DNA from: a bacterium
GTDB lineage: Bacteria > UBP14 > UBA6098 > B30-G16
Assembly (NCBI GenBank): GCA_021162205.1
Contig: JAGGZE010000049.1
Coordinates: 1 to 36,100, forward strand
Direction: 5' to 3'
DNA length: 36,100 nucleotides
Shown: one piece after another, positions 10,183 through 29,666 of the stretch
Numbering within the stretch: the stretch's first letter is position 1
How the letters are laid out: each line of letters starts with the position of its first letter
Program-made: the position numbers and the translations under genes
Notes under the pieces: generated by a model
Databases searched by the model: none
Told to the model about the DNA's origin: nothing
Seen by the model: the letters and a program-made list of their open reading frames with translations, nothing else

Positions 10183-11235
10183 ATGAGTAAGAAAATCGGT
10201 ATCTTGACCGGCGGCGGCGATGCCCCCGGATTGAACCAGGTTATTCGCGGTGCGGTCTATCGCGGCATAAAAGAATATGAATTCGAGTTTTTTGCAATCG
10301 AAGATGGCTGGAAAGGACTTTTAGATGGCATTTTGCATCCATTGACAATCGACGATGTTCGCGACTGGTCGTTCGAGGGCGGAAGTCTTTTGGGCTCATC
10401 GCGAACTAATCCATTCAAACACGATGGCGGCGGCGAAAAATGCCGTGAGAATTTCGAGAAAATGGGTCTCGATGCAATTATCGCACTCGGCGGCGAGGAC
10501 ACACTCGGAGTCGCATATAAATTGTATTCGCAGTTCGATATTCCAACGGTCGGTGCTCCAAAAACAATCGATAACGATCTTCCAGGCACAGACCAGTGTT
10601 TCGGTTTCGATACAGCAGTAAATCGTGTAATGGAGGCATTCGATAGGATTCGCACGACCGCTCGGTCGCATCATCGGATTCTCGTTGTCGAGGTTATGGG
10701 CAGACACGCAGGATGGATGACACTCGTCGGTGGAGTCGCCGGTGGCGCCGATATAATCTTGATTCCCGAAGAACCTTTCAATATCGACGATGTCGCTCGA
10801 AAGTTGAACAAGTTGAAAACCGAGGGCAGAAAATACGCGCTAATCGCTGTTTCCGAAGGTGCAAAAATGAAATTCGCCGATGCAACAGATATTATCACGC
10901 AGGATGCTCGGGTCGATGAATTCGGTCATGTTCTACTCGGTGGAATAGGCAATATTTTAGCGAAAGAATTGCAGAAACGCACGGGTTGGGAGGCACGACA
11001 CATCGTTCTCGGACATCTTCAACGAGGTGGCGCACCATCGGCATTCGATAGATGGTTCGCATCACGACTCGGTATCGCACTCGCAGACCAAATTTCGCAG
11101 GATAATTATGGAATTATGCTTGTGCTAAAAGGTTCGGCTATCGTTCCTGTCAGTCTCGAGGAAGCAGCTAATGGAATACGCACTGTGCCTGAAAATATTA
11201 TCGAAATCGCAAAAATATTCGAACCCCACCCTTAG
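10183..11235 (+). CDS. 6-phosphofructokinase, probable pyrophosphate-dependent type
   Basis: GILTGGGDAPGLNQVIRG, GGEDTLG, PKTIDNDLPGTD; AGGAGG at 10171 before ATG 10183, so start trimmed from the 10069 ORF. Confidence 0.92.
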   Translation: MSKKIGILTGGGDAPGLNQVIRGAVYRGIKEYEFEFFAIEDGWKGLLDGILHPLTIDDVRDWSFEGGSLLGSSRTNPFKHDGGGEKCRENFEKMGLDAIIALGGEDTLGVAYKLYSQFDIPTVGAPKTIDNDLPGTDQCFGFDTAVNRVMEAFDRIRTTARSHHRILVVEVMGRHAGWMTLVGGVAGGADIILIPEEPFNIDDVARKLNKLKTEGRKYALIAVSEGAKMKFADATDIITQDARVDEFGHVLLGGIGNILAKELQKRTGWEARHIVLGHLQRGGAPSAFDRWFASRLGIALADQISQDNYGIMLVLKGSAIVPVSLEEAANGIRTVPENIIEIAKIFEPHP

Positions 11236-11247
11236 TGTGTTTTCTTT

Positions 11248-11289
11248 GTGCAACTTACCTGATTGCAAAGCAATCATTCCTTGTTGCAC
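11248..11289. repeat. Nested-hairpin element, copy 1
   Basis: GTGCAAC...GTTGCAC outer stem, GATTGC-AAA-GCAATC inner stem; differs by one base from 29625-29666. Confidence 0.85.
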
Positions 11290-13075: not shown

Positions 13076-13188
13076 AATTCGATAGGATAAATAATATTAC
13101 GAGAAGATAATAATGAGATAAGGTCGAGAAATTCAATAGTATTGTTTTGCATTTTCGATAATTTCTATTATAATTTAATTAATACCAA

Positions 13189-13206
13189 TTGCAGAGGTCA
13201 CACCTC
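13189..13206 (+). repeat. 18-bp palindromic unit, pyrF-leader copy
   Basis: TTGCAGAGGTCACACCTC; stem GAGGT/ACCTC at 13194-13206. Confidence 0.9.
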
Positions 13207-13221
13207 AATCGAGGTTTCACA

Positions 13222-14112
13222 ATGGATTTTTGGAATAAAATCGAAAATTTGCACAAAATCAATCGTTCCTCACTTGTTATAGGTCTCGACCCCGTAATCG
13301 ATAAATTGCCCGAGAATATCGAGAAAAATAACGGCGGTATATTGAAATTTATCGAACAAATCGTAAATTCTACGCACGATTTAGTGTGTGCATACAAACC
13401 GAATCTCGCATTTTTCCTCGCTCTCGGTGATGATGGATTGAAAATCCTTCGACAATCGATAGAAATTGTCAAATCTTGCAGAGGTCACACCTCATATGGC
13501 GATATTCCAGTTATACTCGATGCCAAATTCAACGATGTCGGGCATACTGCGGAAATGTATTCGAATTTCGCATATAATACCGGTGCGGATGCTGTTACGA
13601 TAAATCCATATATCGGCAGGGATACTATCGCTCCATTTATCGAAAATGGTTTGGGAATCATATTACTTTGTGCTACCAGCAATCCCAATTACACAGATGT
13701 CGAGGGCATTCCCGTCGGAACGGGACGAGATGGCAAACCATTATATAGCGAGATTGCGAGACTTGCCGAAGAATGGTCGAGATATTTTGGTAAACGAATC
13801 GGCCTCGTTGTCGGTGCGACTCATCCAGATGTTTTTGCTCGAATCAGAAAATATGCCCCGAATTCACCATTTTTGATTCCCGGTATCGGTGCTCAGGGCG
13901 GAGATATTGCCGATTCTATGAAATCGAGCATCACAGCGGATTCGTTCCCGCCACTTATTGTATCGGCTCGCTCGATTCTCTATGCCGCAAGCGATGAAAA
14001 TTTTGCCGATGCCGCAAGAGAGAAAGCAATAGAATTGAAAAATAAAATAAATTCGATTTGTAGAGGTAATACCTCTCACACCTCTATCGGTGAAAGGATT
14101 TCCAATGAATGA
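13222..14112 (+). CDS. pyrF: Orotidine 5'-phosphate decarboxylase, with embedded palindromic repeat peptides
   Basis: LVIGLDPVIDKLP, AYKPNLAFF, DIPVILDAKFNDVGHTAEMYS, PFLIPGIGAQGGD; ATG 13222 preceded by GAGGT SD. Confidence 0.92.
   Translation: MDFWNKIENLHKINRSSLVIGLDPVIDKLPENIEKNNGGILKFIEQIVNSTHDLVCAYKPNLAFFLALGDDGLKILRQSIEIVKSCRGHTSYGDIPVILDAKFNDVGHTAEMYSNFAYNTGADAVTINPYIGRDTIAPFIENGLGIILLCATSNPNYTDVEGIPVGTGRDGKPLYSEIARLAEEWSRYFGKRIGLVVGATHPDVFARIRKYAPNSPFLIPGIGAQGGDIADSMKSSITADSFPPLIVSARSILYAASDENFADAAREKAIELKNKINSICRGNTSHTSIGERISNE
13476..13493 (+). repeat. 18-bp palindromic unit inside pyrF
   Basis: TTGCAGAGGTCACACCTC, encoded SCRGHTS. Confidence 0.9.
14059..14085 (+). repeat. Palindromic unit plus partial copy at pyrF 3' end
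   Basis: TGTAGAGGTAATACCTCTCACACCTCT, encoded CRGNTSHTS. Confidence 0.85.
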
Positions 14113-14824
14113 TGAAGAACTTTACAAATTGCTCGAACGCACCGGCGCGTTATTGACAGGACATTTCAAACTTTCATCGGGATTGCACAGCGATAAATAT
14201 GTCCAGTGTGCAAAACTTCTACAATATCCCGAAATGGCTGAGCAAGTGGGAGTAGAACTCGCAAAACGATACGAAAACACCATTTGCAATGGTCGAACCA
14301 TAGATAAAATCCCCAATGTAATTGCATCGCCCGCTATCGGCGGAATCGTAATCGGTCAGGAGGTCGCAAAAGCACTTAGCAGTGGTCAAACCACTTGTAG
14401 TGGTCGAACCACAAATATTCGGCATATATTTGTCGAAAAGGACAGCGATGGCAAACCGACTTTACGCAGAGGTTTCTCGATTGCACAGGACGAAACATTC
14501 GCAGTGGTTGAGGATGTCATCACAACAGGGAAATCCACACTCGAGGTCATCGATTTGCTCACCGAACTCGGCGGAAAAGCAGTCGCGATTCTATCGATTA
14601 TAGATAGAACTAATTGCAGAGGTCACACCTCTTGCAGAGGTCACACCTCTTCTGACGGAAATCCCGAGTTCGACATACCATTTATTTCACTCACCAAACT
14701 CGATTTCAACACCTATGAACCCGATAAATGCCCCTTGTGCGCTCAAAATATCCCAATCGAAAAACCCGGCAGCCGCAGGCGTTCGCCTGTTTTTAGTGCG
14801 TTGCATTTTTCTGAATCCCGATGA
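14105..14824 (+). CDS. pyrE: Orotate phosphoribosyltransferase, with embedded palindromic repeat peptides
   Basis: TGHFKLSSGLHSDKYVQ, ASPAIGGIVIGQEVAKAL, FAVVEDVITTGKSTLEVI, CPLCAQNIPIEKPGSR; overlaps pyrF stop by 8 nt. Confidence 0.92.
   Translation: MNDEELYKLLERTGALLTGHFKLSSGLHSDKYVQCAKLLQYPEMAEQVGVELAKRYENTICNGRTIDKIPNVIASPAIGGIVIGQEVAKALSSGQTTCSGRTTNIRHIFVEKDSDGKPTLRRGFSIAQDETFAVVEDVITTGKSTLEVIDLLTELGGKAVAILSIIDRTNCRGHTSCRGHTSSDGNPEFDIPFISLTKLDFNTYEPDKCPLCAQNIPIEKPGSRRRSPVFSALHFSESR
14284..14301 (+). repeat. 18-bp palindromic unit variant inside pyrE
   Basis: TTGCAATGGTCGAACCAT, stem ATGGT/ACCAT, encoded ICNGRTI. Confidence 0.88.
14377..14412 (+). repeat. Two tandem palindromic units inside pyrE
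   Basis: TAGCAGTGGTCAAACCACTTGTAGTGGTCGAACCAC; 18-bp period, stems GTGGT/ACCAC; encoded SSGQTTCSGRTT. Confidence 0.88.
14614..14649 (+). repeat. Perfect tandem duplication of the 18-bp unit inside pyrE
   Basis: (TTGCAGAGGTCACACCTC)x2, encoded CRGHTSCRGHTS. Confidence 0.95.
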
Positions 14825-14864
14825 AATCGGGAACTGACAACCAAGTTGTCATTCCTTGCAACGC
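14798..14864. repeat. Nested-hairpin element, copy 2, overlapping the pyrE 3' end
   Basis: GCGTTGCA...TGCAACGC outer stem; inner TCCCGAT-GAA-ATCGGGA and TGACAAC-CAA-GTTGTCA. Confidence 0.85.
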
Positions 14865-20002: not shown

Positions 20003-20101
20003 AATTGGTTTGGAAACTTTGCAATCAGGGAAACAACGCACAAAAGACAGGCGAATGCCTGCCCGAAGGGGTGAAAAAAAGTTTTCCCAGACTCCTTCAA
20101 G

Positions 20102-20121
20102 AAGAGCTTTCAGCTCTTTTT
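20102..20121 (+). terminator. Intrinsic-terminator-like hairpin (duplicate)
   Basis: AAGAGCT-TTC-AGCTCTT-TTT. Confidence 0.6.
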
Positions 20122-20148
20122 AATTGGTTTGGAAACTTTAATAACGCG

Positions 20149-20190
20149 GCGTTGTAAGGAATGATTGCTTTGCAATCAGGGAAACAACGC
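20149..20190. repeat. Nested-hairpin element, copy 4
   Basis: GCGTTGT...ACAACGC outer, GATTGC-TTT-GCAATC inner. Confidence 0.85.
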
Positions 20191-20224
20191 ACAAAAGACA
20201 GGCGAATGCCTGCCCGAAGGGGTG

Positions 20225-29514: not shown

Positions 29515-29624
29515 TAGAATTATCCTTCGATTAAATTTTATATAAGTATTTTGCAAATATGTAGATTATAATTGAAATGTCGAGAAAAATATTTTATGTG
29601 TTGCACCTTTTAGGTGTTTTTATT

Positions 29625-29666
29625 GTGCAACTTCCCTGATTGCAAAGCAATCATTCCTTGTTGCAC
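29625..29666. repeat. Nested-hairpin element, copy 5
   Basis: GTGCAACTTCCCTGATTGCAAAGCAATCATTCCTTGTTGCAC. Confidence 0.85.

Follow-up and report, generated by a model that had tools for sequence, protein, structure and literature searches.

The window, the whole 36,100-nt stretch of DNA that we analysed, comes from an uncultured bacterium and carries the pyrimidine genes pyrF and pyrE. Eight copies of an 18-bp palindromic unit, all on the + strand, lie within and just upstream of these two genes:

13189..13206, +: 18-bp unit TTGCAGAGGTCACACCTC in the pyrF 5′ leader, a perfect copy whose end lies 15 nt before the pyrF start codon (ATG, 13222)
13222..14112, +: pyrF, orotidine-5′-phosphate decarboxylase (TIGR02127, above the curated cut-off)
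13476..13493, +: 18-bp unit inside pyrF, before DIPVILDAK, encoding CRGHTS
14058..14075, +: 18-bp unit at the pyrF 3′ end, encoding CRGNTS
14076..14084, +: half unit TCACACCTC, adjoining the unit at 14058..14075 and read directly
14105..14824, +: pyrE, orotate phosphoribosyltransferase (TIGR01367, above the curated cut-off)
14284..14301, +: 18-bp unit in pyrE with the variant stem AATGGT/ACCAT, giving the 6-residue insert CNGRTI
14377..14394, +: 18-bp unit in pyrE with the variant stem GTGGT/ACCAC, first of a tandem pair (SSGQTT)
14395..14412, +: 18-bp unit in pyrE, second of that pair (CSGRTT), the pair giving a 12-residue insert
14614..14631, +: 18-bp unit in pyrE with the stem GAGGT/ACCTC, first of a tandem pair (CRGHTS)
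14632..14649, +: 18-bp unit in pyrE, second of that pair (CRGHTS), the pair giving a 12-residue insert

The motif was counted eight times in 13101-14830 and not at all in the rest of the window, with a mean of 0 in first-order Markov simulations. A sequence-only reading of this DNA had reported seven copies and none elsewhere in the 36 kb; all seven lie where it placed them, with the peptides it gave, and no unit falls outside 13101-14830, but it had missed the perfect copy at 13189-13206. The 53-nt pyrF leader shows no folding advantage over shuffled sequence (z -1.1), and for this reason we claim no leader switch. At 13199-13213, the ACCTC return arm of the leader unit could pair with GAGGT just upstream of the pyrF start, giving a possible, statistically unsupported alternative hairpin. 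A separate family of longer repeats, built on the hairpin TGATTGCAAAGCAATCA, recurs in the window at 11227-11289, 20017-20224 and 29604-29666, and the core of this hairpin is the commonest in the genome sample.

Anatomy of the 18-bp unit

The consensus of the unit is TTGNAGNNGT-NNN-ACNNC, also written TTGNAG-NNGT-NNN-ACNNC. It comprises a TTGNAG tag, a 5-6 bp stem begun by the last two bases of the tag, a 3-nt loop and a return arm, and folding of single units gave this same hairpin. The tag position mostly reads GCAG, the commonest form, or GTAG, found in only a few units, with GAAG or GGAG in others; the AG of the tag lies within the stem. Of the stem cells in 24 distinct units, 85% are paired. 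Changes on both sides of the stem were seen in 15 cells, a level reached by none of 500 shuffles, and slid controls collapsed. Tandem period and insert size are both exactly 18 bp.

Units are read in all three forward frames and in two of the three reverse frames (five of the six frame and orientation combinations), yielding unrelated peptides. In pyrF and pyrE, all seven coding units are read in the same frame and often yield C-R-G-H-T-S; in genes other than these two the unit is read in different frames and in reverse, with GGVTTA, ADVTHL, SQRSHL and others as products. Since many frames are used and the peptides are unrelated, it is the DNA rather than the peptide that is conserved. The units would be passengers at the DNA level and not a peptide motif.

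Spread through the genome and restriction to one lineage

The earlier reading had presented the repeats as a feature of pyrF and pyrE. Units do lie there, but when we searched the fragmented assembly (185 contigs) with sequence patterns and with a covariance model of the unit, copies also turned up on eight more contigs, and restriction to pyrFE was rejected. Across the 2.57-Mb genome we count about 25 units on nine contigs, spread mostly over about ten genes, the majority of them essential. Beyond the pyrF-pyrE contig they are placed as follows:

purM: two units
purA: unit inside the gene
dnaJ: unit inside the gene
radical-SAM gene: a tandem pair
RNase H gene: six units, a pair and four in tandem
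class-I glutamine amidotransferase gene: one unit and a tandem pair
purQ: unit at the 3′ end
def: unit at the 3′ end
intergenic copy: one unit

Only two of the approximately 25 units lie outside coding sequence, and a common tag and stem recur at unlinked loci in both orientations. In a 1.03-Mb sample that takes in every contig with a strong match, 25 sites scored at least 18 bits compared with none in an equal amount of simulated sequence; as the scoring matrix was built from the same units, this score measures their unlikeness to chance and is not an independent discovery. Four of the nine coding loci (pyrFE, purM, purA and purQ) belong to nucleotide biosynthesis, a possible bias that we spotted post hoc among few loci. 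A match in secY (contig C62) and other matches at E>1 were set aside as chance arising from conserved context. A T/S-rich predicted protein at C139:2463-2510 contains an 18-bp tandem, VSAATTVSGATTS, that resembles reverse-frame units and was left out of the count as uncertain.

The palindromic element is lineage-specific. With the covariance model, nothing below E=0.02 was found in 20 other genomes, compared with 17 such matches in this one. The exact pattern occurs 13 times here and zero times or once, the control level, in each of 16 other genomes of the phylum. The nearest relatives compared are other genera of the same family, from metagenomes. An exact-pattern scan of viral contigs, in itself a weak test, gave no match.

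Inserts in the encoded proteins

When PyrE was aligned with 17 relatives, gaps of exactly 6, 12 and 12 residues opened at the three unit sites. None of the 17 relatives has the inserts, and without them PyrE is exactly as long as its relatives. In PyrF, the internal unit corresponds to an 8-residue gap in the closest relatives aligned, and a C-terminal extension holds one and a half units. Because gaps open in the aligned relatives, the unit-encoded residues of PyrE and PyrF are, as judged by alignment, insertions, and the alternative that they are conserved, ungapped family positions was rejected. These results bear out two proposals of the sequence-only reading, namely that the residues are inserted relative to canonical PyrF and PyrE and that the 18-bp unit length preserves the frame.

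The earlier reading had also suggested mapping the inserts on a structural model. In the AlphaFold model of PyrE, whose mean pLDDT is 87, the orotate phosphoribosyltransferase fold is preserved, and the best match is 4paw. The inserts, at about residues 61-66, 92-103 and 171-182, occupy less confident blocks that lie between elements of secondary structure; most of the third scores below 50. The model is consistent with the inserts being tolerated loops. Genomes of the same family were used to size inserts in three further proteins, giving 6 and 6 residues in PurM, 15 and 26 residues (holding two and four units) in RNase H, and 6 residues in PurA; around the insert sites, PDB alignments of PurA, DnaJ and the amidotransferase were not tight enough for sizing. 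Units make up 36 of the 177 residues of the predicted RNase H protein. The enzymes that carry units look intact.

Origin of the element

We consider the units to be, more likely than not, a lineage-specific miniature palindromic DNA element that was widely inserted and tandemly multiplied and is retained in essential genes as a passenger. Such an element would insert at many places in one bacterial lineage, moving as a hairpin, and could be a reduced derivative of the GTAG-type REP that accompanies a RAYT locus of this genome. In places it would multiply into head-to-tail tandem copies, presumably by slippage, and the inserts would be neutral for the host proteins. Units could persist in essential genes because each 18-bp copy adds six codons, meets no stop in the frames used and gives an insert that sits in a loop. 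Against a mobile element, there are few copies for a mobile repeat family, and the four of nine loci in nucleotide biosynthesis are not predicted by random insertion. In addition, no target-site duplication was evident by eye in the unit flanks, and none of the Y1-transposase (Y1_Tnp) genes found, from three matches in the genome, is flanked by the unit.

Two GTAG-REP hairpins (GTAGGAGAGGTCTCCCGACCTC and a variant) precede the start of a RAYT-like gene at C149:9543-9779, a layout that resembles known systems of REPs and REP-associated tyrosine transposases (PMC2817692). Unlike in those systems, the coding frame of this gene is interrupted, and the rest of it continues in a different frame. The C149 REP is longer than the 18-bp unit, although both have a GTAG-like tag and a GAGGT/ACCTC stem, and the unit is absent beside this gene. 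Because the unit is shorter and does not lie beside that REP, its descent from a C149-type REP is offered only as a suggestion. Copies of GTAGGAGACATCTCCCGATGTC, related to the C149 GTAG-REP, occur on several other contigs. A long restriction-modification-like ORF encloses, at C114:2219-2533 and in frame, a Y1-transposase (IS200-like) domain. Longer palindromes (GGTGGACTTCAGTCCACC; AGACGACTAAAGTCGTCT) also occur in this ORF as several in-frame copies and form a second intragenic palindrome family in this genome.

Earlier work (PMC3733652) described both Rickettsia palindromic elements and REPs with a GTAG or CGTC tag that lie inside genes, uvrA and recB among them. The 18-bp element works like GTAG-type REPs and Rickettsia palindromic elements but departs from each of them in defining features. 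GTAG-tagged REPs are 20-40 bp long, mostly extragenic and present in high copy, with some intragenic copies (Di Nocera, De Gregorio and Rocco 2013, PMC3733652). At one end they have a GTAG-like tag that degenerates to GYAG in some families; the stem is about 6 bp long and the loop 2-3 nt. Stem changes in their sub-families are complementary, dimers occur, and some copies lie inside DNA-metabolism genes and add residues (PMC3733652). Our unit shares the short stem, small loop, complementary stem variants, dimers and intragenic copies, and its tag resembles GTAG or GYAG in most units but reads GAAG or GGAG in others. However, it is 18 bp long, its tag is GTAG in only a few units and mostly GCAG, its tandem period is exactly 18 bp, almost all of its roughly 25 copies are intragenic, and the RAYT gene is not flanked by it and carries a different, longer REP.

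Rickettsia palindromic elements are palindromic DNA in frame within genes that likely encode working proteins (cited in PMC3733652); RPE-4 and RPE-6 end in CGTC, and RPE-1 is described as longer (PMC3733652). In-frame insertion within genes is shared with our unit, whereas its ends lack CGTC (consensus TTGNAG...), it is shorter than RPE-1 and it belongs to another lineage. The resemblance to these elements proposed from the sequence, with a much shorter and unrelated unit, stands, but GTAG/GYAG-tagged REPs with intragenic copies are the nearer analogue (PMC3733652). Inverted repeats embedded in protein-coding genes also occur in the mitochondria of Nematomorpha (PMC6649704), but these are perfect repeats of up to 284 bp in an animal lineage.

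A stronger form of the mobile-element reading, which we put forward tentatively and do not favour, is that the 18-nt hairpin is itself mobile and possibly the smallest described. It would insert without target duplication, tolerate nearly every frame, grow into tandem arrays in essential enzymes and be biased to nucleotide-biosynthesis genes.

The main rival to a mobile element is templated local mutation, in which a short quasi-palindrome was copied by template switching and replication slippage, with neither a transposase nor a mobile element as such. Tandem runs of 18-bp units in pyrE and in the RNase H and radical-SAM genes, the perfect co-change of the stem arms, and the lack of a matching transposase or target duplication among our findings would all fit. 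We nevertheless think it unlikely, as a common tag and stem at unlinked loci on nine contigs, in both orientations, would require a dispersal step. Less probable still is a regulatory RNA signal of nucleotide-biosynthesis genes that is read by an RNA-binding regulator and tolerated in coding sequence: this would suit the units in pyrF, pyrE, purM, purA and purQ and the one just upstream of the pyrF start, but units also lie in dnaJ, def, the RNase H gene and the radical-SAM gene, their number, orientation and position vary between genes, and the same genes in relatives have none. Selection for a CxGxTx peptide that gives PyrE and PyrF an extra function, metal binding for example, might be read from the single frame of their seven coding units; with the same DNA in other frames and in reverse elsewhere, and with inserts poorly ordered in the PyrE model, we regard it as very improbable. 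An assembly artefact or chance pattern, which fragmentation into 185 contigs might favour, is scarcely credible for units that lie on nine separate contigs, have diverged with compensating stem changes and are absent in simulation, and given that leaving out the PyrE inserts restores the relatives' length exactly.

As a probable mobile element, the unit is a palindromic repeat of near-minimum size that lives almost wholly in the coding sequence of conserved proteins. It is a clean case of repeats turning into protein segments, and it lets one ask what the lower size limit of a mobilisable hairpin is. There is also a caution, as extra loops in predicted enzymes can be DNA passengers and not adaptations.
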